Part shown: in pieces, positions 7,539 through 26,597 of the stretch | Position numbering within the stretch: the stretch's first letter is position 1 | Layout: each line of letters opens with the position of its first letter | Source: Verrucomicrobiota bacterium | GTDB taxonomy: Bacteria; Verrucomicrobiota; Verrucomicrobiia; Verrucomicrobiales; DEV007 | DNA length: 34,547 nucleotides | Assembly (NCBI GenBank): GCA_030625775.1 | Contig: DAOUQC010000056.1 | Location: 1 to 34,547, forward strand | Direction: 5' to 3' | Translations under genes and position numbers: made by a program | The notes under the pieces: generated by a model | Told to the model about the DNA's origin: nothing | Seen by the model: the letters and a program-made list of their open reading frames with translations, nothing else | The model's database searches: none

Positions 7539-7568
7539 TATTTCCGAATTTGCTTCGTCTGAGCGGAG
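7539..7568 (+). promoter_or_regulatory. TTTCCGAAT motif, weakest copy
   Basis: This 30-base stretch matches the motif at 14762-14791 at about 22 of 30 positions without gaps, sharing TTTCCGAAT, a CTT and a terminal GGAG. It lies 53 bp upstream of the PD40 gene start at 7621. It could be a regulatory site shared with the sigma-factor unit, or chance similarity. Confidence 0.3.
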
Positions 7569-7620: not shown

Positions 7621-8595
7621 ATGAAGCAACACGCCCGTCGAAAATTTATCAAAAACGCAGGTCTCGCGGCCAGTACCGTCTTCGCGGCCTCTATATGCAT
7701 CTTGCCTGCCGTTGGCGCTGAAGAAAAGCACAGATCTTCCTATTATAAGGATGGCGAGCTACACGTAAATATTTTAGGAACCCCCGAGGAAAAACCGCTC
7801 ACGACCGGTCACTGGGATTTCAAACCATCGTGGTCGAAGACCGGTAACAAGCTGGTCTTCTTCCGCCGTCTAGTGAATGACAAGGAAGTCAGTAACTGGA
7901 AGACAGCAATCTGTATTATCAATGTGGACGGCACGGAATTTCATCAGCTCACCGATGGCACTCACACTGATTTCAATCAAACCTGGACAAGGGATGGAAC
8001 CAATACGCCGATCTGGAATAGGAAGAAACCGGCAGGCGGCGGATACCGGGTCATGGCCGGCAAGATCGGCGGGAAACCCGGAGAGGAGATTGCTCTGACG
8101 GGTAAGGCTTACCATACATGGGGTTTCACCTGCCTCACGGATGGACGGATTCTCGTGGGTTCAACCCCGCCGAAGCAGAAGCGTGGTTACTATTTAATGA
8201 CGCCCAATAACGGCGGAGCGCCCAAGTTCGAACGCATTCAATGTGAACTTGATAAAGGGGGAGTTCTCGCTCGAGTCAGCCTCTCAACTGACGAGACGAA
8301 AGTTTGTTTCGAGTATCAGAAAGGATTCAAGAAATCCGTAAGTGGTCGGACGCTCTACCTTGCCGATTTCGACGCGCAGAAGTTAACGATGACGAACTTC
8401 AAGCCTTTTGCGAACGAGGCAGGAAAACCCATCTGGTTTGCCTATCCCCGATGGACCAAGGACCAGAGTGCGATCGTTTATCAAGCCGGGGGTAAATTGT
8501 TTCTCTACACACTCGCCGATGGCTCCACGCGGAAGGTTTCCACGGACGACAAAGCTGATTACCGCTATCCCCACGGCGAAGCGACGCCGAAATGA
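7621..8595 (+). CDS. Tat-exported PD40/TolB-like beta-propeller protein
   Basis: 324 residues from the ATG at 7621. The frame is open further upstream, to a TTG at 7513 and an ATG at 7594, but 7621 places a twin-arginine signal (ARRKFIKNAG then a hydrophobic stretch to AVGAEE) at the very N terminus. The rest is a WD40-like propeller with repeats of the form PSWSKTGNKLVFFRR, TWTRDGTNTPIW and YPRWTKDQSAIVYQAG, typical of PD40/TolB-like domains. Similar folds occur in oligogalacturonate lyases and in non-enzymatic periplasmic proteins; I cannot choose between them. Its stop codon overlaps the start of a 15-codon ORF that leads into the downstream sulfatase, suggesting translational coupling within an operon. 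Confidence 0.8.
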   Translation: MKQHARRKFIKNAGLAASTVFAASICILPAVGAEEKHRSSYYKDGELHVNILGTPEEKPLTTGHWDFKPSWSKTGNKLVFFRRLVNDKEVSNWKTAICIINVDGTEFHQLTDGTHTDFNQTWTRDGTNTPIWNRKKPAGGGYRVMAGKIGGKPGEEIALTGKAYHTWGFTCLTDGRILVGSTPPKQKRGYYLMTPNNGGAPKFERIQCELDKGGVLARVSLSTDETKVCFEYQKGFKKSVSGRTLYLADFDAQKLTMTNFKPFANEAGKPIWFAYPRWTKDQSAIVYQAGGKLFLYTLADGSTRKVSTDDKADYRYPHGEATPK

Positions 8596-8639
8596 TCAAG
8601 AATGCAAAACTCACACTTGAAGAACTGAAAGCAAAATGA
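8592..8639 (+). CDS. 15-codon ORF joined to both neighbours by ATGA overlaps
   Basis: Encodes MIKNAKLTLEELKAK. Its ATG shares bases with the stop of the PD40 gene (ATGA at 8592-8595), and its TGA shares bases with the ATG of the sulfatase (ATGA at 8636-8639). It could be a coupling peptide that carries ribosomes across the 40-bp gap by termination and re-initiation, the remnant of a lost gene, or coincidence. The peptide is lysine-rich and likely helical; no family is recognised. Confidence 0.35.
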   Translation: MIKNAKLTLEELKAK

Positions 8640-10138
8640 AACCACTACTGACTTTAATTACCTTCGCTGCTTTTTCCATTCAGGCAGCCTCTAAACCCAA
8701 CGTGGTGATTTTACTGGCCGATGATCTGGGATCACAGGATCTTGGTTGCTACGGAGGACCCGTCAAGACCCCGACTCTGGACAAACTGGCGGCCAGGGGC
8801 GTCAAGTTCACCGACTTTCATGCCGGGGCCGCGGTTTGCTCTCCTTCACGGGCGACCTTGCTGACGGGAAGGCAGAATCTGCGCACCGGTATTTACGGTG
8901 TCCTTCAGGATCACATGCACGACATGCACTTGCTCGAGCGGGAAGTGACGATCGCGGAAGTGCTCCAGAAGGCGGGATACGGAACCGCGCACTTCGGCAA
9001 GTGGCACGTCGGCATGACCTCCGGCAAACGCAAGAAGCCGTCGCCGACGCAGCACGGCTTTGACTACTGGTTTGGTTTATCCAACGGCGCCCAGCCCAGC
9101 CACCGAAACCCCACGAACTTTATGCGCAACGGCAAAAGGGTGGGGCCGATGAAGGGTTACTCCTGCCAGATCGTCGTCGACGATGTGATCAACTGGCTAG
9201 AGACAAAGCCAGATCCCGATCAGCCATTTTTTATGAACATCTGGTTCAACGAGCCCCACTCCAAGCTGGCCGCACCGGACGAAATCGTTTCGATCTACGG
9301 TGATCTGAAGGATGAGGCGGCGATCTATTCCGCCACGGTCGACAACACCGATCGCGCCATCGGACGCCTCGTCGAGAAGCTCGAGGCGATGGGCGAGCTC
9401 GACAATACCCTGATCATTTATTCCTCCGACCACGGGAGTTACCGACCGGATCGCAACGGTGGTTTGAAAGGTAGCAAAGGATCGTATTTTCAAGGCGGGC
9501 TGCGTTCGCCCGGCATCTTTTTCTGGCCGGAAGGCATTCGCGGCGGCCGGATCGAGAACACGCCATCGGGTGCGGTCGATCTGTTGCCGACCATCTGTGG
9601 CCTGGCCGGTATTGATAAACCCAAGGGAGTGCATCTTGATGGCGCGGATCTGACGCCTCTGTTGACTGAGAGTGGATCCTTCACACGCGCCCAGCCCCTG
9701 TTCTGGCTGGCGCCATCGTCCGGGCAGCTCGCGACCTTGCGTGACGGTCAGTACACGCTGATGGGCTTCAAGGATTACCAATTTCCCGCCGATCGCAAGA
9801 AACTCAATGAAATCCTGCAGAAGATGGCCAAGATGGCTGGCCTCGACCCATCGGGCCCCAACCTTCTGAGTCGCGTGAGTAACACGACGTTTTCGAGCCC
9901 CGAGTACAACCGCTTGCGCGCCGAAAAGGTTCGCCTGCAGACATTCCAGGAATCGTGGATTCCGATCATCAAGAAGGGCGGGTTCAGCCGCTTCGCGCTC
10001 TACGACTTAAAGGCTGACCCTCTGCAAAAGAAGGACATTTCAAAGCAGCGGCCGAAAGTCACGGCGCGCCTCAAGGAAAAGCTGCTGGCGCTCTACAAAG
10101 ATGTCATGGCCGATGCGCCGGACTGGCCCTCAAAATGA
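8636..10138 (+). CDS. Type-I sulfatase, CSPSR type (G+C-rich)
   Basis: 500-residue exported sulfatase. The signal peptide ends about residue 18; PNVVILLADDLGSQD carries D29/D30; C68 in AVCSPSRATLLTG is the formylglycine site; GKWHVG gives the catalytic lysine and histidine; and YSSDHGSYRP is the C-terminal metal motif. The C-terminal subdomain (YDLKADPLQKKDISKQ) is the usual sulfatase ending. Codon third positions are markedly G/C-rich compared with the sulfatases at 2.8-4.4 kb and 11.8-13.3 kb, so this gene and the next may have arrived together. It begins at an ATGA overlap with the 15-codon ORF and is followed 35 bp later by another sulfatase. Confidence 0.93.
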   Translation: MKPLLTLITFAAFSIQAASKPNVVILLADDLGSQDLGCYGGPVKTPTLDKLAARGVKFTDFHAGAAVCSPSRATLLTGRQNLRTGIYGVLQDHMHDMHLLEREVTIAEVLQKAGYGTAHFGKWHVGMTSGKRKKPSPTQHGFDYWFGLSNGAQPSHRNPTNFMRNGKRVGPMKGYSCQIVVDDVINWLETKPDPDQPFFMNIWFNEPHSKLAAPDEIVSIYGDLKDEAAIYSATVDNTDRAIGRLVEKLEAMGELDNTLIIYSSDHGSYRPDRNGGLKGSKGSYFQGGLRSPGIFFWPEGIRGGRIENTPSGAVDLLPTICGLAGIDKPKGVHLDGADLTPLLTESGSFTRAQPLFWLAPSSGQLATLRDGQYTLMGFKDYQFPADRKKLNEILQKMAKMAGLDPSGPNLLSRVSNTTFSSPEYNRLRAEKVRLQTFQESWIPIIKKGGFSRFALYDLKADPLQKKDISKQRPKVTARLKEKLLALYKDVMADAPDWPSK

Positions 10139-11665: not shown

Positions 11666-11713
11666 AGAGGATTCGTTTGTGGGATGAGTATCGCGACAAT
11701 CACTGCATCCCCT

Positions 11714-11773
11714 CCAATCCCGGCTCTCGCCAGCAGTCAAGCATCAGGGTTGAAAAAGCAATTTCCTTACAGT
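11714..11773 (+). repeat. Dispersed directional element, copy 2
   Basis: CCAATCCCGG is followed 39 bp later by an A-run and GCAATTTCCTTACAGT. It aligns with copy 3 (13442-13500) over its whole length with one gap, sharing among others the CCAATCCC, CAATC/CAGTC, ATCA and GGTT stretches. It ends 37 bp before the preferred ATG of the next sulfatase. Confidence 0.65.
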
Positions 11774-11810
11774 AAATAGCTGGGTGAAGTCTATCATCCT
11801 TCGACGAATC

Positions 11811-13319
11811 ATGAAACAAATGTCCAAATTTCCTGTTTCGGTTTTCTTTTTCCTGCTACCGCTAACGCTTTGCGCGCAATCTGCCGACAAACCGAACATC
11901 CTCTTGTTCCTGGTTGATGACATGGGGACGCAGGACACATCGGTTCCGTTCAATTACGATAGCGATGATCAGCCGGTAATTTCTGAACTCAACAGAATTT
12001 ATCGAACTCCCAACATGGAGAAGCTCGCAAAAAACGCCCGGCTTTTTACTCAGGCTCACGCCTATTCTGTATGTTCCCCAACGCGAATCAGCCTGATCAC
12101 CGGACTCAACGCCCCGCGTCACAAAGTTACCCAGTGGACCCACCCCAAGACCTATAAATCAGAGCCGGGGGCCATTAAAACCAAAACTCTGAAGAATCCC
12201 GGGTGGGCAGTCAAAGGATTACCTGAAAATATCCCTACTCTTCCCGCCCTTCTTAAACAATCGGGATATACCACGCTGTTTGCCGGCAAAGCCCATTTTG
12301 GTCCGGATGACACTCCGAATGGCGATCCAAAAAACATCGGCTTCGACATCAACATCGCAGGTTTTGGCGGTGGTGGACCGGGCAGTTACTGGGGGAAATA
12401 TAATTACTCAGCCAACCATCGCAGCGGTGACCACGTTTGGGATGTGCCCGGGCTGGAAAAATACCACGGTACCGACACCTTCCTTACCGAGGCCATCACG
12501 ATAGAAATGAATCAGGCTATTGAAAATGCGGTTAGTGAAAACAAGCCATTCTTTGCCTACATGAGCCACTACGCCGTTCATGCGCCGTTTCTATATCCGG
12601 ATGCTCGCTTCGCTCAAAATTATCCCCAACTCAAAGGTAATGCACTTGCCTTCGCCACACTGATCGAGGGAATGGACAAATCCCTCGGAGACATGATTGA
12701 GAAGCTGCACGATTTAGGAGTCGCCGAAGAAACATTGATTATCTTCTATTCCGACAATGGCAGCGCCAATCCAATGGGAAGCAAGCCACTCCGCGGGATT
12801 AAGGGAAGCCGCCATGAAGGAGGCACCAGAGTTCCGCTAATGGTTGCCTGGGCAAAATCCAATCCGGACAATCGATTTCAAAAGCGCCTGCCTGTTAAAC
12901 AAGGCACTCGTGAAGACGCGCTGGTTGCCTGTACTGACTTCATGCCAACGATTCTCAAGATCGCCGGGGCGAAGCACCCGAATCCTGAAAGCCTCGACGG
13001 GTTTGATATTTCGCCTTACTTTTCAGGGCAGGACGCCAAACGCCCACAGGAGTTCCTGGTTCATTTCCCACATGCTCACAGGAACAATTTGTTCAGCACC
13101 TTCATCAGAAGTGATTGGAAAGTTATCTATAGTTATGCATCTATGGATTGGGAGTTATATAACCTGAAAGAAGACCCCTACGAGTTGCGGAATCTTGCAA
13201 AAGAATTTCCTGAGCGGTTGCAGTCGATGGCCGGACATATGATCGCCGAACTGGATAAAAACGAAGCCTCCTACCCTGTCTCTGTCGAAACCGGAGAACC
13301 GGTGAAACCAATCAGGTAA
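11811..13319 (+). CDS. Type-I sulfatase, CSPTR type (A+T-richer)
   Basis: 502 residues from the ATG at 11811. A GTG at 11784 is also in frame but would add a charged extension before the signal peptide MKQMSKFPVSVFFFLLP. PNILLFLVDDMGTQD carries the metal aspartates; SVCSPTRISLITG holds the formylglycine cysteine (about residue 88); FAGKAHFGP supplies the lysine and histidine; and FYSDNGSANP is the last metal motif. A long loop with four glycines in a row (FGGGGPGSYWG) follows the GKAHFG region. Base composition differs clearly from the two sulfatases just upstream. It stands alone between two copies of the dispersed element (11714 and 13442), like a single-gene cassette. Confidence 0.92.
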   Translation: MKQMSKFPVSVFFFLLPLTLCAQSADKPNILLFLVDDMGTQDTSVPFNYDSDDQPVISELNRIYRTPNMEKLAKNARLFTQAHAYSVCSPTRISLITGLNAPRHKVTQWTHPKTYKSEPGAIKTKTLKNPGWAVKGLPENIPTLPALLKQSGYTTLFAGKAHFGPDDTPNGDPKNIGFDINIAGFGGGGPGSYWGKYNYSANHRSGDHVWDVPGLEKYHGTDTFLTEAITIEMNQAIENAVSENKPFFAYMSHYAVHAPFLYPDARFAQNYPQLKGNALAFATLIEGMDKSLGDMIEKLHDLGVAEETLIIFYSDNGSANPMGSKPLRGIKGSRHEGGTRVPLMVAWAKSNPDNRFQKRLPVKQGTREDALVACTDFMPTILKIAGAKHPNPESLDGFDISPYFSGQDAKRPQEFLVHFPHAHRNNLFSTFIRSDWKVIYSYASMDWELYNLKEDPYELRNLAKEFPERLQSMAGHMIAELDKNEASYPVSVETGEPVKPIR

Positions 13320-13441
13320 AAATAGAAAAGGGGTGATCATCGCTTATTTTGTGGTGATAATGTTAGGGGAAGGCAAATGACAAAAGCCAATGAAGCAGGA
13401 AAGCAAAGTCACCGTGAAGGGAAGTAGGAAATCGCACCACT

Positions 13442-14818: not shown

Positions 14819-14897
14819 CCCCGCGGGGTTAGCGAGTTCATTTATAAAATCGAAGGCAAGCTTGTATAGAATGATTCCCCGTGGCTTGCCACGGGGA
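14819..14897. repeat. REP-like pair of palindromes
   Basis: ATTCCCCGCGG and ATTCCCCGTGG mark two palindromes 57 bp apart. The first is CCCCGCGGGG (14819-14828). The second forms a perfect 10-bp stem, TCCCCGTGGC with GCCACGGGGA around TT (14876-14897). The layout resembles REP/BIME elements, which are usually moved by IS200-like REP-associated transposases; none is in the window. The second hairpin lies 29 bp before the sigma-factor ATG and could also act as an attenuator or terminator, but it has no following T-run. Confidence 0.55.
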
Positions 14898-14926: not shown

Positions 14927-15451
14927 ATGGATCAGACTGCAGAATATGTTCGACTCTGGACCCACCATCAGGCGGAGGTTGAACGCTATGTTTACATGAT
15001 GGTTCCGCGGGCAGCTGACGCAGCCGAGGTGGTGCAGGATGTTTCGGTGCTGCTGTGGAAAAAGTGGGATGCCTACGATCAGTCGAGACCCTTTGTTCCC
15101 TGGGCAATTCGCTTTGCTTATCTTGAGGTGTTGAAATGGAGGCAGAAGCTGGCGAGGGAAAAACTGGTATTTTCAGGCGACCTTCTGGAACAACTCCACG
15201 CTGCTCATGAAAATGAAGCTCCAATCATGGAAGCTCGGCAGAAGGCCTTGAATGGTTGTCTGTTACGGCTAAGCGAGCAACAGCGAAAATGGGTCGACAT
15301 GCGTTATGGTCGCCACGGTGCAATAAAAGAAGAATCCGAGCGTTCCGGGGTGAGCATGCACAAGTTGTATTACGCGCTTGAGAAGATTCGCTCGCAGTTG
15401 CTGGATTGTGTAGGGCAAACAATGAGAAAGGAGGGATGGAGTGATGTCTGA
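14927..15451 (+). CDS. ECF sigma factor (Rhodopirellula/Verrucomicrobium type)
   Basis: 174-residue extracytoplasmic-function sigma-70 factor. Region 2 spans about residues 10-85 (VERYVYMMVPRAADAAEVVQDVSVLLW, then FVPWAIRFAYLEVLKWRQK), with -10 recognition. Region 4 is near the C terminus (LSEQQRKWVDMRYG, then SGVSMHKLYYALEKIRSQL) and would bind the -35 element. It would direct RNA polymerase to a small regulon in response to an envelope signal. The FecR-like gene overlaps its end by 8 bp, so the two are translationally coupled. The ATG at 14927 has no obvious SD, but it is the first in-frame start giving a normal region 2. Likely targets include the genes that follow. Confidence 0.9.
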   Translation: MDQTAEYVRLWTHHQAEVERYVYMMVPRAADAAEVVQDVSVLLWKKWDAYDQSRPFVPWAIRFAYLEVLKWRQKLAREKLVFSGDLLEQLHAAHENEAPIMEARQKALNGCLLRLSEQQRKWVDMRYGRHGAIKEESERSGVSMHKLYYALEKIRSQLLDCVGQTMRKEGWSDV

Positions 15452-16736
15452 TTCATCGGAAAATAACAGACTGGATGAGCTTCTAGCTCGATTGGTAGAT
15501 GAAACTATCAATTCGGGAGAATTTAAGGAACTGGAAACATTGCTGGATGGAGACCTTCATGCTCAGCAGAGGTATATTAATTATCTCGGGCTTCACCGTG
15601 ATCTTGAGACTTCTTCGCTAAGTAAGGAAGAGAAACCTTTCGCCAAACAACCACTGCGTTTTTCAGGATACTCTACTCTGGCCATGGCCGCCATGGCAGC
15701 TGTCCTGGTGATGGTGGTGTCGATGTTGCTTGAGCCTAAAGAGCAAGGTCCCATTGCACACGTTGTGGACCTCGAGGGACCGATCGCCTGGACGGAGGAA
15801 GGCAGTGACAGCGTTCATCATCTCGAAGTTGGTAGCGAGTTGCAGGCTGGCTGGCTGGAATCTTTTGCAGCGGGGACCTGGGTTAAGGTCGAATTCAATG
15901 ATGGAACTTCCCTGGCAGTGTCCGGTTACTCTGTGGTTCGAATTTCCGATAGGGAAAATGGTAAATGGCTGGATATCGAGAAAGGGGATTTCTCCTTTGA
16001 TGTGGTGCCGCAGCCCGAAGGCAAACCCTTGCGCCTCATTACTCCCACGGCTGAGGCTGAAGTGCTGGGCACTCAATTCAATGTTCAGGCAAATGCAAAC
16101 TCCACTCGCTTGACGGTTAATGAGGGTAGAGTGCGAGTAAGACGCCTGGCGGATGGAAGTGTGAAGGAGGTGCCGGCCGACCACCTGGTGATTGCCGCCC
16201 TTGAGGTGGATACCTCGTTTGAGGTTAAACGCCGATCTCAAAATGCCGAGTCGTGGAAAGGCGAATTTCCACGCGATATTTTAGTAGGAAAATGGCGAGC
16301 AGAAGAAGAGCCCAATGGTCTGGTAAAGGCGAGCCCACATATTTACAAAGGGGACTGGGCGGGACCGGAGAAACCCGTTTTGCTGCATTCGGTGGTACTG
16401 GATCCCTCGGCTGGCAATCGCTCACCCTTAGTATTGTCTGCGGGTTTGCGAATTAGAGTTCATGGGAGAATCAAGACGGCTTACAAGATTAACCTTGGCT
16501 TTGCCACCCGTAAACCAAGGGGCGGATTTTACGGTAAGTATCAGATTAAAAAAGGAAGAATGATTCATCCTGATGCGGAGGGAAAATTTGTGATCGAACT
16601 GGACCTGAACGAATTCAATCGCAGGCGTGAGAGATTTCCTGAATCCCCTCTGGGTCACGAGATGGCCTATTTGTGGATACAGACGGTTAGGAAAGACGTG
16701 GGTTTATCGGTGGAAAGCGTGGAACTGAGCAAGTGA
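15444..16736 (+). CDS. FecR-like transmembrane anti-sigma regulator
   Basis: 430 residues from the ATG at 15444, which has a good SD (AAAGGAGGG about 9 bp upstream) and overlaps the sigma-factor stop. Order of parts: a cytoplasmic helical anti-sigma-type segment (1-72, LDELLARLVDETINSGEFKELE); one membrane helix (about 77-96, LAMAAMAAVLVMVVSMLL); a periplasmic FecR domain (about 105-255, with ITPTAEAEVLGTQFNV and LTVNEGRVRVRR); and a beta-rich C-terminal domain of ~150 residues resembling the sugar-binding-like sandwich often attached to PVC FecR proteins. It probably holds the sigma factor inactive until an outside signal arrives. The signal is unknown; the rhomboid at 13.5 kb might take part in proteolysis (inference). 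Confidence 0.85.
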   Translation: MSDSSENNRLDELLARLVDETINSGEFKELETLLDGDLHAQQRYINYLGLHRDLETSSLSKEEKPFAKQPLRFSGYSTLAMAAMAAVLVMVVSMLLEPKEQGPIAHVVDLEGPIAWTEEGSDSVHHLEVGSELQAGWLESFAAGTWVKVEFNDGTSLAVSGYSVVRISDRENGKWLDIEKGDFSFDVVPQPEGKPLRLITPTAEAEVLGTQFNVQANANSTRLTVNEGRVRVRRLADGSVKEVPADHLVIAALEVDTSFEVKRRSQNAESWKGEFPRDILVGKWRAEEEPNGLVKASPHIYKGDWAGPEKPVLLHSVVLDPSAGNRSPLVLSAGLRIRVHGRIKTAYKINLGFATRKPRGGFYGKYQIKKGRMIHPDAEGKFVIELDLNEFNRRRERFPESPLGHEMAYLWIQTVRKDVGLSVESVELSK

Positions 16737-16742
16737 GAGGTG

Positions 16743-17468
16743 ATGAGGAGGCTTGCATTCACATGGTTGTTTTTTTTGCCGAGCACCCTGTTTCAAACAG
16801 AAGCGGCGGACCCGTTTTTACCCGAATCGGTTGGAGATCAGCATTTCAGGGACTTGATCGAAAACTCACCTTTCACTCGTTCTCTCAATATATCTGATTC
16901 GCTTATTCTTACCGGGGTTGCTCACTTCGAAGGTAAGCCGTTGGCTACTGTGCTGGATACAGCAACCAGAGAGTCTTTTGTGCTATCGGAAACACCGAAT
17001 TCCGATGGCTGGAAGATGGTGGATTTTACTGTGGGTGAAGAATTGGATTTGATGATGGCAGAAATTGTCATTGGTGGAGGAGAGGTTGTAAAGGTGCGGT
17101 ATGATAAGGAAAGATTAGAGGATGAGCGGCAACATTCCAAGCGCGCGACCAGATACCGACAGTCTGCCTCTTCATCAAAAGATCGTTCCGGCAGAGGAGG
17201 AGCTATTTCCCAGGAACGTGCCAAGCTGTTATCCAATATAGAAAGCACTGACTTGCCTAAAGGCTATAATCCGGGCGCTGGAAAATCCAAGGAAGAGTCT
17301 CATAAGCTGCATCAGGGTTATGTCGATAATAGGATGTCGAAAATGAGCAGCCAGCAGAAGGGTCGGGTCGGGCAGCTCTGGTCAGAGAAGATGCGTGCAG
17401 ATCCTAAAATGTCCAATCGCGGGGCCTCCTTTGTCAAAATCATGGAGTACGTGGCTGAGAACGAATAA
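16743..17468 (+). CDS. Secreted protein with SPFTRSLN domain and C-terminal module shared with the giant protein
   Basis: 241 residues from the ATG at 16743, six bases after the FecR stop, with GAGAGG as SD. After a signal peptide (about 1-22) comes a ~95-residue domain (FRDLIENSPFTRSLN ... VVKVRYDKE) that is clearly related to residues ~48-138 of the next gene product. A basic, serine-rich linker follows (about 126-152). The last ~70 residues (KLHQGYVDNRMSKM ... GQLWSEKMRADPKMSNRGASFVKI) match a module at about residues 470-540 of the giant protein (GRLWKEQQRLYPNMKNKGASFIKI). No family is recognised. A scaffold or assembly partner of the giant protein is a reasonable guess. No catalytic motif is visible. 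Confidence 0.75.
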   Translation: MRRLAFTWLFFLPSTLFQTEAADPFLPESVGDQHFRDLIENSPFTRSLNISDSLILTGVAHFEGKPLATVLDTATRESFVLSETPNSDGWKMVDFTVGEELDLMMAEIVIGGGEVVKVRYDKERLEDERQHSKRATRYRQSASSSKDRSGRGGAISQERAKLLSNIESTDLPKGYNPGAGKSKEESHKLHQGYVDNRMSKMSSQQKGRVGQLWSEKMRADPKMSNRGASFVKIMEYVAENE

Positions 17469-17538
17469 TAACTTCAATCGCTTATATAAAGATGAGAATA
17501 CAAGCAAAGTATAAAAGCTGAAGTGCTGGATACTTCTT

Positions 17539-18438
17539 ATGACATTGGATAAAGTATTTACCTTTTTACTGGTGCTACTGATTTTTTATCACCCTGCTTC
17601 AGGGAAAGAATCTGGTGTGGCTGTAGTGGCCGTCAATGTCGAAATCGCCCTTCCTCAACCGGTTACCTCCTGGCATTTCCAGGCGGTTTTCGATCACTCG
17701 CCTTTCACCCGTTCACTGAATCTGCCCGGCAGCCTTGTGCTCAGTGGAGTCGCAGAAGTAAATGGACAAACGGTTACCACACTGATTGACACTGAGGACG
17801 GTCGTTCCATGGCCATCTCCGGGGTACCCAATCACCAGGGGTGGAAGTTGGTCGAGTTACAGAGGCAGAAAAACCTCGAGGTGGCCGTTGCCACGATTTC
17901 TATCGAAGGGGGAGAGGAAATCCGAGTTTATTATAACAAGGAGCAAGTCCAAAATGCAGGTCGGATTGCTGCTCGAGAGGCTAGGGGGCCGGGGCATCAA
18001 ATGGTGCTGCGGATGGGAACCCATACGCTGCCCGACTGGATTAAGCAGATCAAGGACCCGGTTGAGAGGGGAAAAGCCATCGCAAAATTGATCGAAGGTG
18101 GGCAGTTCGATAAGGCTCCTTTTGAAGCGGTGACACTGGCCCTTGCGCAGTCGGACCCCCAAGCCCGTGGCCCGGTTCTCTCAGCCGCATTCGGTAGATT
18201 GGGAGGAGGAGTAGGGGGAGTCAAAATCAACGCAGCAGTGAATCGCTTGAATTCACTGTCTGATGGAATGGACAAGGATTTTGCGATCAACGGACTGGCC
18301 CATGGTCTCGTCGGGTCGGATCCAAAAAGCGCGTTGAAATGGGCCAACTCGATTTCACAGGATGGATTTCGCAAAGTCGTGGTGGAGAATGTGACCCGGC
18401 GGATCGAAGCGCAGTCGTCCCAATCGGGCAGGAAGTGA
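17539..18438 (+). CDS. Secreted protein with SPFTRSLN domain and helical repeat module duplicated in the giant protein
   Basis: 299 residues; signal peptide about 1-22. Residues ~48-138 repeat the domain of the previous protein (FQAVFDHSPFTRSLN ... IRVYYNKEQ). Residues 175-299 form an alanine/glycine-rich helical module (FGRLGGGVGGVKINAAVNR, DFAINGLAHGLVGSDPKSALKWANSI) in the style of the xxALxWAxSI helical repeats common in Verrucomicrobia. This module is present again in the giant protein, with about 85% identical DNA and no gap over 375 bp. The gene lies 70 bp after the previous one and 82 bp before the giant gene, in the same direction. Function unknown; the shared modules suggest the three proteins work together. 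Confidence 0.75.
   Translation: MTLDKVFTFLLVLLIFYHPASGKESGVAVVAVNVEIALPQPVTSWHFQAVFDHSPFTRSLNLPGSLVLSGVAEVNGQTVTTLIDTEDGRSMAISGVPNHQGWKLVELQRQKNLEVAVATISIEGGEEIRVYYNKEQVQNAGRIAAREARGPGHQMVLRMGTHTLPDWIKQIKDPVERGKAIAKLIEGGQFDKAPFEAVTLALAQSDPQARGPVLSAAFGRLGGGVGGVKINAAVNRLNSLSDGMDKDFAINGLAHGLVGSDPKSALKWANSISQDGFRKVVVENVTRRIEAQSSQSGRK
18061..18435 (+). repeat. 375-bp direct repeat, copy A
   Basis: This is the 3' end of the gene at 17539-18438, up to the stop. It aligns without gaps to 21929-22303 inside the giant gene. Stretches such as GGGAGGAGGAGTAGGGGGAG and the bases for GFRKVVVENVTRRI are identical, including synonymous positions. Confidence 0.85.
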
Positions 18439-18472
18439 TTTATTTCCCTCTGAGAAAAATTAATCCCCACTT

Positions 18473-18502
18473 TTTTTCCGAATTCTCCTTGGCAACGTGG
18501 AG
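18473..18502 (+). promoter_or_regulatory. TTTTTCCGAAT..TCCTT..GCA..GTGGAG motif upstream of giant gene
   Basis: Second close copy of the motif at 14762-14791, with the same four blocks in the same order. It ends 18 bp before the giant gene's ATG, so it could be part of a promoter whose transcript starts close to the gene, or an operator. Confidence 0.4.
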
Positions 18503-18520
18503 AATAGGAAAGCCGACATC

Positions 18521-21500
18521 ATGAAAAATTATATTACTCTCTTTCTTTTTACCCTTTCGATTTTCGCGACCTCCGCGAGTCAGGCTCAATCGGTAGGGGA
18601 GAACTGGCATCAATGGCGTGGGCCTGAGAACAACGGTGTTTCTCGCACGGCGAAGCCACCGCTCAAGTGGGGCGAAAAAAGCAACCTGGGCTGGAAGGCC
18701 GAGATTAAAGGCATGGGTACAAGTAGTCCCGTCGTTTGGGGCAACAAGGTATTTGTCACCACCGCCATCAATACGGGAAAAGTCGATTCTTCCAAACCGA
18801 AACCGGAGGATCAACCCGAGCGGGTTTTTGGAATCAAGCATCCGAACACGAGCTACGAAATGGTTGTGTTGTGCTTTGACCGGAAATCCGGCAAACAACT
18901 CTGGCGCGAGGTGGCGACGAGCCTGGTTCCTCACGAAGGGCATCACAAGGACGCCAGCTTCGCCTCGGCTTCACCCTTTTGCGATGGAGAGAGAGTGTAT
19001 TTCTGGTTTGGCTCGGCGGGATTGTTTGCCTATTCGCTCGATGGGAAGAAACTTTGGGAACGCAAGCTCGGGCGAGCGAAAGTCGGGGCCAGTTTGGGGG
19101 AGGGGAGTTCACCCGTGATACACGATGGCAAGCTCGTGCTCGTTCGCGATCACGGCGGGCAATCGACGATCGAGTGTTTGGATGCAGCCAATGGGAAGAC
19201 ACTCTGGAAGAAAGACCGAGACGAGGGGAATACCTGGGCCACGCCTGCGATCGTGGAGCGCAACGGGGTCACTCAGGTGATTACGACCGGGACCAAAGCG
19301 GTGCGCAGTTACAATCTCGACAACGGCGAGATCATCTGGTGGGCGAGCGGTTTGACCAACAACAGCGCTCCTTGCCCCATCGTCGAGGGTGACACCGTGT
19401 ACTGCATGACGGGTTACAAGGGGCACGCTTTGCTCGCCATCCCGATCACCGGCAAGGGGGATGTGACGAAACAGATCCAATGGAAAGCCGATCGAGGAAC
19501 TCCCTATGTGCCTTCGTCTATTCTTTACGATGATCAGCTCTACTTCACGCAATCTAACCAGGGCATTCTCACTTCCCTGACAGCGAAAGATGGCAGTGAG
19601 GTGATCGAGCGCACCCGGGTTCCCGATCTCGGTGACATCTACGCCTCACCCGTGGGTGCTGATGGGCGGGTCTATTTAGTTGGTCGCAAGGGAACGACGG
19701 TGGTGATCGAGCATGGCAAGGCCTTCAAGGTTTTGGCCACCAATCAACTTGATGACAATTTTCACGCCTCACCGGCACTGGCAGGCAAGCAGATCTTTCT
19801 GCGTGGCATGCGGTTTCTCTACTGCCTGGAAGATGGGGGCACGGCTGATGGAAGCCGGGTAACCGCTTCGTCCACTCGCCCCTCCAAGGGAGAAACGCCC
19901 TCGCCCGCCAAACCGAAGACGGCTGATGGCGAACTCCGCCAACTTCTCGATACCATCGCCAAGCGTGCGATTCCGAAGGACTATGAGGGCGCAAAACATC
20001 AGTCGTTCGTAGACAAATGGTTTGCTTCCGCCCCGCCTGAAAAAGCCGGTGAAGTCGGCAGGCTATGGAAAGAGCAACAGCGCCTGTATCCGAACATGAA
20101 AAATAAGGGCGCATCATTCATCAAGATTCTCGATTACGTAAGCACGAAAGGAAATAAGAATGCAAAGGGTAACTCTAACACCAAGAAAAAGGGCAACCCG
20201 AACATAAAAAGAAAGGTAAAGGCAGAGATCCGCCACGAGCCGGGCAAACTATCCGGGAAAACCGGCACCATCTCCGGACAGGTTGCCAACGCTTCGGGGA
20301 AACCAATGAGCGGGGTGATGGTCTCCGCTATTGATGACGAGCTGCGCCAGAGCGTTTCGGTTTTTTCCCAGCCTGACGGGCGTTTCAAAATCAGCGATCT
20401 CCAGGAGGGCACCTTTAAGATTCGCGCCCGACTGCCCGGCCAACGGGATCACTGGATCGAAAAGGCAAAACTCGGAGACGATACCGTCAGCGTGACGATG
20501 GAGTCAGCGACCGGTGCGGAGTTAGAAGATCAACGTCCGGCCAGCGATGCTTTTGCCCAGCTGAAATTCGATTCCCCGCGAGACAGGCTGAATTTTAAAA
20601 TGATGTGCAGCTATTGTCATCAGATTGGGACGAAAGGTTTTCGATCGCCGGAGAAACCGGTCGACTGGGACACCATGATCAAGCGCATGAACGGTTTTGG
20701 GGGGCTGTATCCGCACACTAAGGAGACGATTGTGGAGCGCATCATCGCAACCTACAAAGACGATGCGGTTGATAAGTGGCCTGAATATATTCCACCTCCT
20801 GCTCCAAAGGGAATGGTGTCGAAGGCGAAGATCACCACGTGGGAAATGGGAAAACGCTTTGAAGGATCTTTTCATGATTTGGAAGTCGGTGACGATGGGC
20901 TTGCTTATGTTGTCCACATAGGTAGGCAGTACACTGCTACTCTGAACCCTAAGACCGGGGAGCGCTTTTATTATCGCCTTCCAAAAGGCTCACATGGTCC
21001 TCACTCTATCGAGCCTGATAACGACGGCGACATGTGGCTGACCCTCTGTGTCTCCGGCGAGATGGCGAAGTTGGATTTAAAGACCAAGGAATACACCATT
21101 ATATCCAGTGCCAAAGCGCCGGCGGAGCGCGGCTCCTGGCCGCATACCCTGCGCGTCGATCCGAAGGACTCGGATGGCTACATCTGGTATACCGACGCCG
21201 GTAGGAACTCGGTTTTCCGACTTCACCCGAAGACCTTCGAACGCAAGGAGTATCATCTTCTCGATGCGGGACAGGTTAAGGCCGGGGGTAAGGGCGAGTC
21301 TCGTGGCATCACGCCTTATGGTCTCGATTATTCGCCGATCGATGGAACGATCTGGTATTCCAAGCTCAACGGCAATCGTATCGGACGGATCGACCCGAAG
21401 ACTCCTGATGGTGACATCACCGAGTGGAATCCACCTTTTCGTGGGCCGCGTCGTCTTCATGTTGCTCCTGATGGAAATGTCTGGGTGCCGGGGTTCGGCT

Positions 21501-23509
21501 CCGGCGTGTTTGGTAAATTTGATCCCAAGACCGAAAAGTGGACGACCTATCCGCTGCCTGACTACATCAACCAGATCCCTTACGCGCTCAACGTCGCGCC
21601 GGATGGGATGGTGTGGATTTGTGGAACCGGGAACGATACCCTTTACCGATTCAATCCGGAAACCGAGTATCTGGTCGAGTTTCCTTTGCCGTATCAGGTC
21701 AGTTACACTCGCGAGATCGAGTTCGACAAAGAGGGGAACGTCTGGACCAGTACGAGTGGCCCGGCTCGGCACATGGAAAACGCCTGTGGTACCCTCATCA
21801 GGCTGGAACTGCCTGATAAAGTTGAGGAGTCCGGCGGCATGAAACTGACGTCAATTGTTTTGAGTCCGGAAGAGCAGGGAGTCCTGACCGAAGCGGAACG
21901 CGCGAAGCTGACCAAGAAGAAAGTTCCTGTTGGGAAAGGAAAAAATATCGCAAAATTGATCCAAGGCGGGAAATTCGATGCGGCTCCTTTTGATGCTGTG
22001 AAACTGGCCATGGCGCAGTCGGATCCCCAAGCCCGCGGTTCGGCTCTCTCAGCTGCGTTCGGTAGACTGGGAGGAGGAGTAGGGGGAGTCGAGATCAACG
22101 CAGTAGTGAAGCGCGTGAATTCGTTGGAAAACAGTCGAGACAGGGATTTTGCGATCAACGGACTGGCCCATGGCCTTGTTGGGTTGGATCCAAAAGGCGC
22201 GTTGAAATGGGCCAACTCGATCTCAGAGGATGGATTTCGCAAAGTCGTGGTGGAGAATGTGACCCGGCGGATCAAAGCGCAGCCGCCCCAATCGGGCAAG
22301 AAGCCCGGATCAAAACCTACCTCAAAATCGATGGAGAAAAAAACGGGCATCCATCGTCTCGAGAATGCACGTCGTTCCCCATTTGACGCATTTGTTTACG
22401 TGAACCGGGTGCCTGACAAATCCAGGGAGGAGGAGAGTCCTCGGCAGTTTGCAGGTCGGATTCACGGTCATCTTGCGAATCAGGAAGGCCGTGTTCTGCT
22501 GAAACTGCCACCAGGCATGGATAGGGCTGCCTATGACGGCTTCAAGACCTTTCTCGGATCTGAGGGTGATCCAAAAGTGACTAACTGCATCGCCTGTCAC
22601 GCACCCTCATCCTTTGGAATTGCTGATGGTGGATCGCTCCGAGATTTGAAGCTTCCGGATAAAGAAATGGAACAGGTGCTTCGCGAAAAAATCAAACGAG
22701 CCGAAAAGGGAGAGGCCGATTACGCCGGATTGAAGATTACGGAAAGTGATCTTCCCAAGCTGATCGCGTTTCAAAAAAGTTTGGCCGCAGTCAAAGACGA
22801 AGCATTTAGGGATATCATTCTGAGTGCCGAGGTCGTTGATGTGACAGCGTCCGGCAAAGCTAAAAGCAAAGCGGGGGAACCGAAACTTGTCGGACGGGTT
22901 CATTTCGAAGGTGAGCCGCCGAAACGCAATCCGGTCTCCATGGATGAAGCCAGCCGCAAGCTCCATAAGTCGAAGCCCCTCGACGAAAGTATTCTCGTCA
23001 GTGACTCCGGAGGTTTGGAGAATGTATTTATTTACGTAAAGAATGTGCCTGCCGGTAAATATCCGCCGCCTAAAGAGCCGGTAATTGTCGATCAACAAGG
23101 ATCAATTTTCATTCCCCGAGTGCAGGGGCTTCGCGCAGGACAGACCTTGCTGATGAAGAATGGCGATCCCTTCATTCACAACGTGCGCTCATTGTCGCGG
23201 ACGAACCGCCCCTTCAACATAGCGCAGCCACCGGGTTCTGCTGGCCGGGAGAGAGTCTTCGAGAAATCTGAAGGCCCCATCTCGATCAAGTGCGACTTCC
23301 ATCGCTGGATGACGGCCCACTTCTGGGTGATGGATCATCCCTTTTTTGCGGTCACGGATGCGGAAGGGAAGTTTGAGATTCCGGGTCTCCCGGCGGGCGA
23401 ATACACCCTCGTGGCGTGGCATGAAGTATTGGGAGAACGTGAGATGAGTGTCGTGTTGAACCGAAACACCCCCGGGGGTCCGGAGTTTCGCTTCCGGGCG
23501 AAAGACTGA
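18521..23509 (+). CDS. Giant secreted hybrid: PQQ-like propeller, CarboxypepD_reg, cytochrome c, Vgb-like propeller, helical module, cytochrome c, cupredoxin
   Basis: About 1,662 residues. The ATG at 18521 gives a clean signal peptide (MKNYITLFLFTLSIFATSASQAQS) with AGGAAA upstream; a GTG at 18497 is also open but would bury the signal. Order: PQQ-like propeller (~28-440, opening WHQWRGPENNG); module shared with the 16743 gene product (~470-540); Lys/Asn-rich linker (~543-580); carboxypeptidase-regulatory-like domain (~582-663); haem site C696-S-Y-C699-H700; virginiamycin-B-lyase-like propeller (~784-1097, repeated DxxxGxxW and GRIDPKT motifs); helical module shared with the 17539 gene product (~1137-1261); haem site C1356-I-A-C1359-H1360; and a cupredoxin-like domain (~1455-1661) with candidate copper ligands H1553, C1591, H1594 and M1597. 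Each part is known from separate PVC or Acidobacteria proteins; the combination suggests periplasmic electron transfer linked to substrate binding. Activity is unknown, and PQQ binding itself is doubtful. Confidence 0.85.
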   Translation: MKNYITLFLFTLSIFATSASQAQSVGENWHQWRGPENNGVSRTAKPPLKWGEKSNLGWKAEIKGMGTSSPVVWGNKVFVTTAINTGKVDSSKPKPEDQPERVFGIKHPNTSYEMVVLCFDRKSGKQLWREVATSLVPHEGHHKDASFASASPFCDGERVYFWFGSAGLFAYSLDGKKLWERKLGRAKVGASLGEGSSPVIHDGKLVLVRDHGGQSTIECLDAANGKTLWKKDRDEGNTWATPAIVERNGVTQVITTGTKAVRSYNLDNGEIIWWASGLTNNSAPCPIVEGDTVYCMTGYKGHALLAIPITGKGDVTKQIQWKADRGTPYVPSSILYDDQLYFTQSNQGILTSLTAKDGSEVIERTRVPDLGDIYASPVGADGRVYLVGRKGTTVVIEHGKAFKVLATNQLDDNFHASPALAGKQIFLRGMRFLYCLEDGGTADGSRVTASSTRPSKGETPSPAKPKTADGELRQLLDTIAKRAIPKDYEGAKHQSFVDKWFASAPPEKAGEVGRLWKEQQRLYPNMKNKGASFIKILDYVSTKGNKNAKGNSNTKKKGNPNIKRKVKAEIRHEPGKLSGKTGTISGQVANASGKPMSGVMVSAIDDELRQSVSVFSQPDGRFKISDLQEGTFKIRARLPGQRDHWIEKAKLGDDTVSVTMESATGAELEDQRPASDAFAQLKFDSPRDRLNFKMMCSYCHQIGTKGFRSPEKPVDWDTMIKRMNGFGGLYPHTKETIVERIIATYKDDAVDKWPEYIPPPAPKGMVSKAKITTWEMGKRFEGSFHDLEVGDDGLAYVVHIGRQYTATLNPKTGERFYYRLPKGSHGPHSIEPDNDGDMWLTLCVSGEMAKLDLKTKEYTIISSAKAPAERGSWPHTLRVDPKDSDGYIWYTDAGRNSVFRLHPKTFERKEYHLLDAGQVKAGGKGESRGITPYGLDYSPIDGTIWYSKLNGNRIGRIDPKTPDGDITEWNPPFRGPRRLHVAPDGNVWVPGFGSGVFGKFDPKTEKWTTYPLPDYINQIPYALNVAPDGMVWICGTGNDTLYRFNPETEYLVEFPLPYQVSYTREIEFDKEGNVWTSTSGPARHMENACGTLIRLELPDKVEESGGMKLTSIVLSPEEQGVLTEAERAKLTKKKVPVGKGKNIAKLIQGGKFDAAPFDAVKLAMAQSDPQARGSALSAAFGRLGGGVGGVEINAVVKRVNSLENSRDRDFAINGLAHGLVGLDPKGALKWANSISEDGFRKVVVENVTRRIKAQPPQSGKKPGSKPTSKSMEKKTGIHRLENARRSPFDAFVYVNRVPDKSREEESPRQFAGRIHGHLANQEGRVLLKLPPGMDRAAYDGFKTFLGSEGDPKVTNCIACHAPSSFGIADGGSLRDLKLPDKEMEQVLREKIKRAEKGEADYAGLKITESDLPKLIAFQKSLAAVKDEAFRDIILSAEVVDVTASGKAKSKAGEPKLVGRVHFEGEPPKRNPVSMDEASRKLHKSKPLDESILVSDSGGLENVFIYVKNVPAGKYPPPKEPVIVDQQGSIFIPRVQGLRAGQTLLMKNGDPFIHNVRSLSRTNRPFNIAQPPGSAGRERVFEKSEGPISIKCDFHRWMTAHFWVMDHPFFAVTDAEGKFEIPGLPAGEYTLVAWHEVLGEREMSVVLNRNTPGGPEFRFRAKD
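21929..22303 (+). repeat. 375-bp direct repeat, copy B
   Basis: In-frame copy within the giant gene of the 3' end of the gene at 17539-18438. Flanking DNA on both sides shows no similarity to copy A's flanks. The module therefore looks inserted between the Vgb-like propeller and the second haem domain. Confidence 0.85.
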
Positions 23510-25880: not shown

Positions 25881-26597
25881 GATGAACTGAATACCCTTTT
25901 TGGGCCACTTTAGGTGCTAGGTTTCCAGAGCCGTTTCTTGTTCTGGTTAAGCTGGCATTGATCGGAACGCAGGCGTAGCCGGAGCGGAGATCAATGCCAA
26001 TCGTTCATAGTTTGTAGCACACTCATCCGGGCTTTGGAAGCCCAAGTTACTGTGCGGGTGTATGCGGTTGTATAAGCGGCGCCATTCCTCAATAACAACA
26101 CGTGCCTCAGTCACGCTCGGGAACAGTTCCCGATTCAGGCATTCGTCCCTCAAGCGATTGTGAAAGCTCTCCACTTGTCCGTTTTGCCATGGGCTTCCGG
26201 GATCGATATAGATGGCTGCAAACGCAGCTTGAACATGAAGCATAAAGCGATCCTTCGTCGGCATATCGACAGCTAAGAACTCTACTCCGCTTTCCATGAG
26301 TCCAGATATGAAATGGACATTGCGGGCAAGCCTGTCGAGCGTGGCTATCACCAAAGTAGCTTTCTTCTTTTTACATAGCGCCAAGGCTTCCAGCAGTTGA
26401 GGCCTATCCGACTTCTTGCCTGTTTCTACTTCCACGAACTCTCCAATAATTTTGCCTTGTTTATGTGTAAGGAACCTTTCGACTGCTGATCGTTGGGCCA
26501 ATAAACCTAGCTGGCTTATTCCTTGTCGTTGCGTGCTTACTCGATAGTAGGTTACCGCAAGGGTTTTAGTTTTTTCTCGAGGAGTTGCATCTGTCAT
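25881..26597 (-). mobile_element. Remnant of an IS3-family element joined to a serine-resolvase gene
   Basis: The hybrid gene and its 3' flank carry IS3-type sequence. TGAACTGAATACCC at about 25881 looks like an IS3-type terminal end, but no inverted partner was found near 26600-26690. Only the downstream part of the IS is left, so the element should not move by itself. Boundaries are approximate. Confidence 0.4.
25947..26597 (-). CDS. Serine-resolvase N-terminus fused in frame to IS3 transposase C-terminus
   Basis: 216 residues. Residues ~13-127 match the catalytic domain of serine recombinases: YYRVSTQRQG with the nucleophile S21, then ATLDRLARN with R89 and R92, then FMLHVQAAFA. Where a resolvase would continue into its long helix and DNA-binding domain, the sequence switches at about residue 128 to the end of an IS3-type OrfB integrase core (YIDPGSPWQNGQVESFHNRL, then EEWRRLYNRIHPHSNLGFQSP). 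Only the last catalytic glutamate (E143) of the D-D-E triad remains, so transposase activity is very unlikely, and resolvase activity is doubtful without its own DNA-binding part. The frame is intact across the joint. It may be a deletion product, an assembly chimera or, less likely, a domesticated hybrid. Confidence 0.75.
   Translation of the reverse strand: MTDATPREKTKTLAVTYYRVSTQRQGISQLGLLAQRSAVERFLTHKQGKIIGEFVEVETGKKSDRPQLLEALALCKKKKATLVIATLDRLARNVHFISGLMESGVEFLAVDMPTKDRFMLHVQAAFAAIYIDPGSPWQNGQVESFHNRLRDECLNRELFPSVTEARVVIEEWRRLYNRIHPHSNLGFQSPDECATNYERLALISAPATPAFRSMPA

Follow-up and report, generated by a model that had tools for sequence, protein, structure and literature searches.

Sulfated glycans form a large carbon pool, and many sulfatases are encoded by Verrucomicrobiota and Planctomycetota, together with unexplained 'planctomycete-specific' cytochromes. 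He et al. 2017 (PMC5615132) describe PSCyt genes as having conserved families of unknown role as their usual neighbours, with sulfatases often close by, and state that nothing is known of the function of these cytochromes. For type II secretion, PMC12369372 presents the matching of cargo to the machine as poorly understood. The locus described below may bring together sulfatases and cytochromes, as well as a copper-type domain, under a dedicated sigma factor, as one testable regulon whose element is defined by three sites, and it offers a proposal for the way in which cargo of this kind is paired with the secretion machine. Our search of the literature, largely of openly accessible papers, found no description of this cluster, and our analysis suggests that the system is an undescribed bacterial way to process sulfated material outside the cell.

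The window, i.e. the whole stretch of 34,547 nucleotides that was analysed, comes from a Verrucomicrobiota bacterium. Five genes running in one direction, for an ECF sigma factor, a FecR, two small proteins (P3 and P4) and a giant fusion, had been read there, and the ORF check finds all of them in place on the plus strand (Table 1). The FecR gene overlaps the sigma gene by 11 nt, and the best start of the giant is the ATG at 18521. These genes are part of one conserved system which is larger than first read and reaches upstream to a sulfatase operon beginning near 7.6 kb. As the giant has its own candidate promoter, a single five-gene transcript is not implied.

Table 1. Features of the locus, in window coordinates
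Position	Strand	Feature	Basis or remark
7541..7568	+	candidate promoter/operator no. 1, before sulfatase operon	one of 3 N15 sites
7621..8595	+	exported protein, 324 aa, propeller-like by eye	RRKFIK twin-arginine-like start
8636..10138	+	sulfatase, likely orthologue of cluster sulfatase	PF00884, 217 bits
10174..11610	+	second sulfatase of operon	PF00884
14764..14791	+	candidate promoter/operator no. 2, before sigma gene	one of 3 N15 sites
14927..15451	+	ECF sigma factor	TIGR02989, 139 bits (cut-off 124.6); PF04542; dedicated clade
15441..16736	+	FecR-type regulator	PF04773, 57 bits (cut-off 24); hydrophobic stretch near residues 79-97
16740..17468	+	P3, 242 aa	GspC/PilP-like HR domain ~16812-17126 (predicted), M1 17211-17465
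17539..18438	+	P4, 299 aa	N-terminal domain as in P3 ~17641-17958, M2 ~18073-18414
18475..18502	+	candidate promoter/operator no. 3, before giant	one of 3 N15 sites
18521..23509	+	giant fusion, 1662 aa	N-terminal signal-like sequence
18521..19855	+	giant, PQQ_2/BamB-like propeller region, residues 1-445	PF13360, 91 bits
19922..20152	+	giant, module M1	M1 comparison
20606..20620	+	giant, first haem motif CSYCH, residues 696-700	CxxCH in 6/6 rows of A1
20975..21769	+	giant, Vgb-like propeller, residues 819-1083 (best Pfam stretch)	PF24684, 85 bits (cut-off 50)
21941..22285	+	giant, module M2	M2 comparison
22586..22600	+	giant, second haem motif CIACH, residues 1356-1360	CxxCH reading
22811..23311	+	giant, cupredoxin-like region	H1553, C1591, H1594, M1597

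The original prediction had the giant joining two propellers, two haem sites and a cupredoxin, and Pfam matches together with motif reading bear it out. The predicted order is a PQQ_2/BamB-like propeller, CarboxypepD_reg, CxxCH at 696, a Vgb_lyase propeller, CxxCH at 1356, the cupredoxin-like region and a second CarboxypepD-like region. The BamB-like family PF13360 matches the giant, and PF01011 is absent from its reported Pfam matches. CxxCH is found at the first haem position in 78/78 cases, a count which is partly circular because the loci had been chosen by patterns spanning that motif; the second haem motif is not universal, being kept in 39/46 homologous domains and gone in 7/46. The Vgb propeller matched the structures 2qc5 and 2z2p, and the His/Glu/His positions, which we take to be the catalytic set of virginiamycin B lyase, pair with other residues of the giant in a profile alignment where blades can slip. 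The giant possesses the type-1 copper ligand set (His plus C-x2-H-x2-M); the four ligand columns are invariant in 15 aligned rows, C..H..M occurs in 23/23 cases, and the region matches the blue-copper chain 5fc9 (E 0.0023). The structure model of the tail was left out of the claims on cytochrome, copper and M2, because its pLDDT is low (65.7) and its matches lie mainly on the C-terminal CarboxypepD-like part. In Planctomycetota the parts of the giant are separate genes, and their neighbours often include sulfatases, DUF1592 cytochromes and a pair of ECF sigma and FecR genes.

The recurrent context of the system, missing from the first reading, is formed by sulfatases and DUF1592/DUF1552 genes, although in the window the giant is not flanked by a DUF1592/DUF1552 pair. 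The first sulfatase of the operon is 82-84% identical over 481-501 aa to the sulfatase domains of five other loci (L081, L069, L070, L148, L054), and the second is 79-80% identical over ~450 aa to sulfatases of the planctomycete loci L088, L093 and L098. The protein encoded before them, for which an alternative earlier in-frame ATG lies at 7594, has zero matches in Pfam, NCBIfam and PDB; its counterparts in five other loci, four from planctomycetes and one verrucomicrobial, share 66-73% identity with it. A same-strand sulfatase HMM match was found in 43/64 PVC loci vs 0/15 outgroup loci, where we made the split from record titles and identity, the PVC counts are favoured because most sequences behind the profiles came from PVC members, and part of the signal is background because PVC genomes are sulfatase-rich. 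One could also, with the original prediction, read the giant as an extracytoplasmic electron conduit or sink and regard the sulfatases as mere neighbours in a sulfatase-rich genome, since one polypeptide holds two CxxCH sites and type-1 copper ligands, and in L110 and L113 split CYTB, CCV and CUP genes adjoin sigma/FecR from behind with no same-strand sulfatase match at the locus. We consider this improbable, given the PVC/outgroup contrast, the loss of the second haem in part of the homologues and the sulfatases of other loci that are fused to M1, PQQ or CYTB parts like the giant's.

P3 and P4 had been taken for two unknown secreted proteins. They are indeed real ORFs with shared modules, with zero matches in Pfam and NCBIfam at E≤1, but our analysis changes their description to proteins resembling GspC/PilP-type adaptors. 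The predicted model of P3 has a pLDDT of 84.8 and a predicted HR beta-fold, and by VIA its six best chains were of GspC/PilP type (PilP being that of the pilus machine) at Z 6.2-4.9, the next one following at 4.0; chains 3jc8_Pa and 4av2_M among the structures are presumably PilP, judging from context. A basal member of the P3/P4 family stands directly after GspL/GspM-like genes of a type II secretion operon, and the L-M-N order occurs in 17/48 loci of the family, with a member other than P3/P4 themselves. In the own genome the type II secretion neighbours of the family are a Pfam PilN match and a sub-cut-off T2SSM_b. Taken together, predicted fold and gene position support P3 and P4 as putative paralogues of a GspC/PilP-like subunit of the lineage's type II secretion machine. 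Sequence-level proof of GspC/PilP identity did not come out of the searches, as none of 21 family members matched PilP or T2SSC of Pfam at E≤5, and the HR-like domain had no match to PDB sequences at E≤10. These results, together with a best Foldseek E of 0.0042, 31/48 N-domain loci having no type II secretion gene in the stretch read, and a start of P3/P4 that by eye is a short hydrophobic stretch and not a clear membrane anchor, would fit another explanation of P3 and P4, namely that they are not secretion adaptors and that the HR-like fold is a generic beta-domain building a periplasmic scaffold with the giant. We hold the scaffold to be unlikely, the position of one family member right behind the GspL-/GspM-like genes in 17 loci being the evidence opposed to it.

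The sharing of modules among the three unknowns is real: the N-terminal domain is common to P3 and P4, M1 to P3 and the giant, and M2 to P4 and the giant. In the whole own genome M1 has only two matches at E≤0.01, which are P3 and the giant, and both M1 and M2 were also found in partner sulfatases elsewhere. A PDZ domain was sought in P3/P4 with no match, M1 or M2 being there instead. With hhalign, M1 compared to the C-termini of the GspC-like family reached a probability of 89% for 24 orphan members and only 34% for 16 T2SS members, and from these sequence comparisons M1 may have descended from the C-terminal domain of that family. The M2 copies of P4 and the giant are identical at 329/389 DNA positions; recent gene conversion between them is unsupported, as the tree groups the P4 copies together and the giant copies mostly together.

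The sigma factor belongs to a clade of 9 members (support 1.0), with identities across genomes of 65-80% and of ≤36% to other sigmas of its own genome; the label U206 was dropped, since the protein itself is a sigma factor. It was found in 10/57 genomes examined, the own one included, and 9/10 of these also carry M1; both are thus present in 9 genomes, 1 has the sigma without M1, 2 have M1 without the sigma and 45 have neither (Fisher 5.9e-8, kinship ignored). The original prediction was to fall if the small proteins and the giant were not found together elsewhere; it survived this first of its two tests, as P3/P4-type proteins and the giant recur together in other genomes, and overall it holds in part. 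The order SIG-FecR-P3-P4 is the same in G064, with the giant 7.4 kb further on the same strand, and in G011, with the giant 19 kb further on the same contig and strand, while L079 has FecR-P3-P4-divergent gene-giant and L192 has SIG-FecR-P4-giant. According to scans of all ORFs, from which the gene-context counts were drawn, an N-domain (P3/P4-type) gene was seen in only 5 of the 22 named loci where the giant is fused, and in 0/42 where CCV is a gene of its own, many of these loci lying on short contigs.

A candidate promoter element links the transcription units. TTTCCGAAT-N15-GGAG has exactly 3 sites in the 4.88-Mb own assembly, all within the window, and the reversed control pattern at N15 has 0. 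With the looser pattern [CT]T[CT]CCGAA[AT]-N-GGA, the collected loci gave 28 sites at spacer 15 (6 of them in regions fetched for having the motif) vs 0-7 at spacers 10-14 and 16-20; a chance origin was rejected, the reversed control giving 0-3 sites per spacer (10-20). Exact N15-GGA sites fall on the contigs of the system in 13/42 cases over ten genomes vs 0.40 expected by length, where G023 was tallied on its P3/P4 contig, so that the site which it has 61 nt upstream of its sigma gene (C156) is outside the 13; the background in genomes having neither a sigma-clade nor an M1 match is 2 (G001), 0 (G002), 4 (G005) and 1 (G017). The motif stands upstream of the sigma gene in G020, G063, G064 and G023 and upstream of the giants of G011, G063, G064, G069, G070, L064 and L065. 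In all these giants except L065, where the motif is 198 nt before, an in-frame ATG opening a signal-like sequence follows GGA by 14-20 nt, and 9 nt separate the motif from the ATG of a sulfatase-D1592 pair in G011 and of a D1592 gene in G070. At 7/18 checked sites the motif is inside the longest ORF reading, and a later start was therefore assumed there. No copy was found in front of the clade sigma genes in G011, G018 and G031, or in front of two giants, in G016 (L049) and L070; G016 has zero exact N15 sites genome-wide, and G069 has two, both on contigs other than that of its giant.

Such distances allow a different view of the regulation, in which the element is bound by a repressor or an activator, or belongs to the 5'-UTR and supplies GGAG as ribosome-binding site, as the start codon lies only 9-20 nt after the GGA end at most enzyme and giant genes checked. 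It is possible but not likely: at the four sigma genes checked the GGA end is 32-136 nt from the ATG, too far for GGAG to be a ribosome-binding site there, and an ECF promoter agrees with the fixed spacer and with the presence of a site in front of the sigma gene as well. The proposed control of the giant by the sigma factor is backed at the level of sequence only, by the shared motif and the phylogenetic profile, and weakened by the two giants before which the motif was not found.

From the data discussed above, it would be reasonable to suggest, and we lean somewhat towards this reading, that the locus is a dedicated sigma/FecR surface-signalling regulon of extracytoplasmic sulfatases, a multi-redox protein and secretion adaptors, acting on a sulfated substrate outside the cytoplasm. 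A signal passed on by FecR would free the ECF sigma, which would then transcribe three units of the window: the sulfatase operon (7.6-11.6 kb), the sigma-FecR-P3-P4 operon and the giant. P3 and P4, carrying system-specific M1 or M2 where GspC has a PDZ or coiled-coil domain, may recruit or tether the giant and the sulfatase cargoes at the secretin, a role proposed because M1 and M2 recur both in the giant and, elsewhere, in partner sulfatases. The sulfatases would take off sulfate, and the cytochrome-propeller, second cytochrome and type-1-copper-like region of the giant could pass electrons from substrate oxidation towards the respiratory chain. Besides the motif and the phylogenetic profile, the split CYTB, CCV and CUP genes next to sigma/FecR in L110 and L113 speak for the regulon. 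What speaks against it are the N-domain counts and the Z range given above, with the HR-like domain finding no sequence match to PilP, T2SSC or PDB chains, the genes at which the motif was not found, the presence of M1 in Planctomycetota without P3/P4, and a Pfam scan of 24 window proteins in which no TonB-dependent transducer of the FecA kind came up. We may even imagine a self-contained oxidative-desulfation exosystem, where one sigma makes both the cargo (sulfatases and the giant) and cargo-specific type II secretion clamp paralogues that bind or tether it through M1/M2, modules shared by the two sides, though this stronger version appears rather unlikely.

Compared with known systems, the locus shares with Fec-type signalling an ECF sigma with adjacent FecR and a candidate autoregulatory site, but here the sigma is of TIGR02989, the Rhodopirellula/Verrucomicrobium family, and it is proposed to act on sulfatase genes and on that of a redox giant. 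Polysaccharide utilisation loci are alike in clustered sulfatases and candidate co-regulation; SusC/SusD had no match among the window proteins scanned, and the only glycan-cleaving match in the window is to the 3-keto-disaccharide hydrolase family. The giant resembles virginiamycin B lyase by PF24684 above cut-off, whereas its propeller is fused to a c-type cytochrome and a CarboxypepD domain. PSCyt/PSD neighbourhoods likewise have cytochromes, conserved unknowns and sulfatases nearby; what sets our locus apart is a specific sub-cluster that combines a sigma of its own with M1/M2, GspC-like proteins and propellers of the PQQ and Vgb types. To GspC of type II secretion and PilP of type IV pili the P3/P4 family is close in the predicted HR fold, in a member placed after L and M and in a C-terminal extra domain; it differs from them in showing no sequence match, in having M1/M2 in place of the PDZ or coiled coil, and in extra paralogues that sit in a sigma-linked enzyme operon.

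The five genes, predicted earlier to run in one direction from an ECF sigma factor through FecR and two small proteins (P3 and P4) to a giant redox protein, are present as claimed, and the giant, whose best start is the ATG at 18521, has 1662 residues. From its N-terminus it joins a PQQ_2/BamB-like propeller (PQQ), module M1, a CarboxypepD domain, a c-type haem site, a Vgb-type propeller, module M2, a second haem site, a cupredoxin-like region and a second CarboxypepD-like region. P3 consists of a domain named here N followed by M1, and P4 of N followed by M2. A search of the own genome with a 41-row alignment (A2) found M1 exactly twice at E<=0.01, in P3 and in the giant; against Pfam M1 has no credible match, the weak scattered ones reaching 6e-5 in one of the 41 members. 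The 3' end of the P4 gene (18047-18435) and the M2 region of the giant (21915-22303) are identical at 329 of 389 nucleotides, with one block of 39 nt fully identical.

Features of the window and haem sites of the giant
Feature	Position	Strand	Remark
ECF sigma gene	14927-15451	+
FecR gene	15441-16736	+
P3 gene	16740-17468	+
P4 gene	17539-18438	+
Giant gene	18521-23509	+
Haem site 1	residue 696		CSYCH
Haem site 2	residue 1356		CIACH
Element, N15	7541		ahead of sulfatase operon
Element, N15	14764		ahead of sigma gene
Element, N15	18475		ahead of giant
Inverted repeat	14877-14896		GC-rich, CCCCGTGGCTTGCCACGGGG; between motif and sigma start
Three-gene run	7621-11610	+	one protein and two sulfatases
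Flanking sulfatase genes	1300-13320 and 27926-32086		seven; two in the 8.6-11.6 kb operon
ThuA-like genes	4444-5346 and 32219-33121
3-keto-disaccharide hydrolase gene	6674-7402
Resolvase/integrase ORF	25950-26597		resolvase N-terminal and integrase-core domains joined

The giant is a fusion of parts that are separate in other loci. A scan of named genomes for its CarboxypepD-cytochrome-Vgb core (CCV), selected by the haem-1 region, brought 79 loci, divided by record title and identity into 64 PVC loci, mostly of Verrucomicrobiota and Planctomycetota, and 15 outgroup loci from Acidobacteriota-type, Hydrogenedentota and similar bins. The full fusion with PQQ and cupredoxin occurs in 11 of the 64 and a partial one, often truncated where the contig stops, in another 11; in 42 the CCV gene lacks both parts, and in L110 and L113 sigma, FecR, second cytochrome (CYTB), CCV and cupredoxin are separate neighbouring genes. 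Same-strand components, counted over the whole of each of the 64 PVC loci (many of them on short contigs, so that the counts are lower bounds), were M1 (57), CYTB (45), sulfatase (43), PQQ (37), DUF1592 (28), cupredoxin (25), DUF1552 (23), M2 (15), sigma (14), FecR (13) and N (5); the same scan of the 15 outgroup loci gave one CYTB and one PQQ match and nothing else. Among loci with at least 6 kb of upstream DNA, sigma or FecR lay upstream in 9 of 26 PVC loci, again a lower bound, against 0 of 13 outgroup ones. Other giant fusions were also observed: PQQ-M1-propeller/ankyrin-type part with a weak MauG-like match (L056, G044), PQQ-sulfatase-DUF1592 (L057, G031), and propeller/ankyrin-type part-sulfatase-M1 (L164, G021), which sits behind a sigma of the window-sigma clade.

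Judged by its sequence, the window sigma is probably dedicated to this system. It belongs to a clade of nine (support 1.0), each from another genome and 72-80% identical to it; the 21 other sigmas of the own genome reach at most 36%. In the comparison set of 57 genomes, sigmas at least 65% identical to it occur in 10, own included (next best 43% and 42%), M1 in 11 and CCV in 6. Sigma and M1 are found jointly in nine genomes and neither in 45; one, G031, has the sigma without M1 and carries CCV, and two, G030 and G044, have M1 without the sigma (Fisher 5.9e-8, uncorrected for relatedness). The system is patchy, since the same-genus relatives G001 (73% complete) and G002 lack sigma, M1 and CCV alike. 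M1 is also rare outside this set, having one to five places per genome in 16 of the 17 genomes reached via CCV loci. The L070 giant adjoins a sigma of a different clade, and in L076, L078 and L079 the gene immediately 3' of the giant encodes a second and different ECF sigma.

A repeat common to the DNA ahead of the sigma gene and ahead of the giant defines an element, TTTCCGAAT-N15-GGAG. When any spacer from 5 to 25 is allowed, it matches seven times in the own genome; the three N15 matches all lie inside the window, and the other four have spacers of 24, 13, 12 and 8. A looser pattern gave, in the collected loci, 28 sites at spacer 15 (six from regions fetched because of the motif) against 0-7 at each other spacer from 10 to 20, and 15 of the 28 are near a gene start (sigma 4, giant/CCV 9, N 1, PQQ 1). 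The simplest reading of this sequence pattern would be an ECF promoter; it could, less simply, be an operator or a leader element. GGA ends 14-30 nt 5' of an in-frame ATG opening a signal-like sequence in all but one of nine giants or giant-type genes (198 nt from the ATG in L065), and ahead of four sigma genes it ends 32-136 nt upstream. In G011 it ends 9 nt 5' of a sulfatase gene that has DUF1592 after it, and in G070 9 nt 5' of a DUF1592 gene. Of eight clade sigma genes whose upstream DNA was examined, five (window, G020, G023, G063, G064) have the putative promoter, and ahead of those of G011, G018 and G031 it was not found; nor is it found upstream of the giants of G016 and L070. In L138, at about 8065 on the minus strand, a motif variant (TTTCCGAAA) points towards the gene that runs divergently from the giant and encodes a 500-aa protein with no Pfam match at E<=1e-4; the regulon may therefore have further members.

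The surroundings of the unit in the window are a sulfatase-rich island, possibly with a mobile element nearby, the resolvase/integrase ORF. No sulfatase, DUF1592 or DUF1552 gene lies directly 3' of the giant in the window. In L070 the giant is followed by a sulfatase (PF00884), a DUF1592/DUF1588/DUF1585/DUF1587/DUF1595 protein and a DUF1552 protein; L094 and L099 have the order sigma, FecR, DUF1559 pseudopilin-like protein, sulfatase-modifying-factor-like protein, sulfatase-M1-PQQ-CYTB fusion, CCV-M1, DUF1592, DUF1552, and L104 is similar but without CYTB. Within the three-gene run of the window, the non-sulfatase protein has counterparts of 66-73% identity in four planctomycete loci and one verrucomicrobial locus, the first sulfatase is 82-84% identical to cluster sulfatases over 481-501 aa, and the second shares 79-80% identity, over about 450 aa, with sulfatases from planctomycete loci. 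The nearest published context that we found is that of sulfatase and PSCyt neighbourhoods, whose function is given there as unknown (PMC5615132).

Haem site 1 is invariant across the six-row seed alignment, and site 2 is absent from 7 of 46 homologous domains. The copper ligand set is the same in all 15 rows, with C..H..M in 23 of 23, and its spacing resembles that of amicyanin. Weak PDB sequence matches point to cytochrome c6, at E 0.0016, and to a blue-copper domain, at E 0.0023; the Vgb catalytic set was not recovered in register. We propose that oxidation may be coupled to desulfation, the propellers serving as substrate-binding or catalytic parts. The suggestion of one system linked to the sigma was right, but incomplete as to what the system is.

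The small proteins and the giant recur together, which is the check that the original prediction had named, in several loci. The order sigma-FecR-P3-P4 is seen in G011 (L168), with the giant 19 kb further on the same contig and strand, and in G064 (L181), with the giant 7.4 kb further on the same strand and sulfatase-DUF1592-DUF1552 after it. FecR-P3-P4 is followed in L079 by a giant past one divergent gene and in L059 by the contig end; L192 has sigma-FecR-P4-giant, L076 a P3 end, PQQ, P4 and giant, and L064 an N-M2 gene immediately 5' of the giant. However, of the 22 named loci whose giant is fused only 5 have an N-domain gene, and among the 42 named PVC loci with CCV but no fused giant there is none.

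Sequence profile searches for the fold of P3 and P4 returned no profile matches. The predicted P3 model (pLDDT 84.8) found by Foldseek, as best PDB match, chain Pa of a type IVa pilus machine model (E 0.0042), taken to be PilP; in a second structural comparison the six best chains were of GspC or PilP type, two of them assigned from entry context, at modest Z values of 6.2-4.9 (next 4.0). One N-domain gene of the own genome lies directly 3' of T2SSM-like and PilN-like genes in a T2SS operon. The N-domain family occupies 87 places in 30 of the 57 genomes, and among 48 loci examined (40 of these places and 8 already collected) the L-M-N gene order occurs in 17. From this position, which is the independent evidence, together with the predicted fold, the best reading of P3 and P4 is that they are additional copies of the GspC/PilP-like subunit of the lineage. 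Four of the 31 loci without L-M-N order directly adjoin a sulfatase gene; in L061 (5168-7590) and L191 (5474-7644) a sulfatase gene is followed at once by a GspC-like N-domain gene, as if enzymes travelled with their own adaptor.

M1 may derive from the helical C-terminus of the N-domain family, to judge from hhalign, which gave a probability of 89% for 24 of 26 orphan C-termini and 34% for 16 of 17 T2SS ones, short ones being dropped from both sets. GspC usually ends in a PDZ domain and sometimes in a coiled coil (PMC3169554), and only a subset of substrates requires this PDZ domain (PMC12369372). P3 and P4 carry at this place M1 or M2, modules that the giant and some sulfatases have too.
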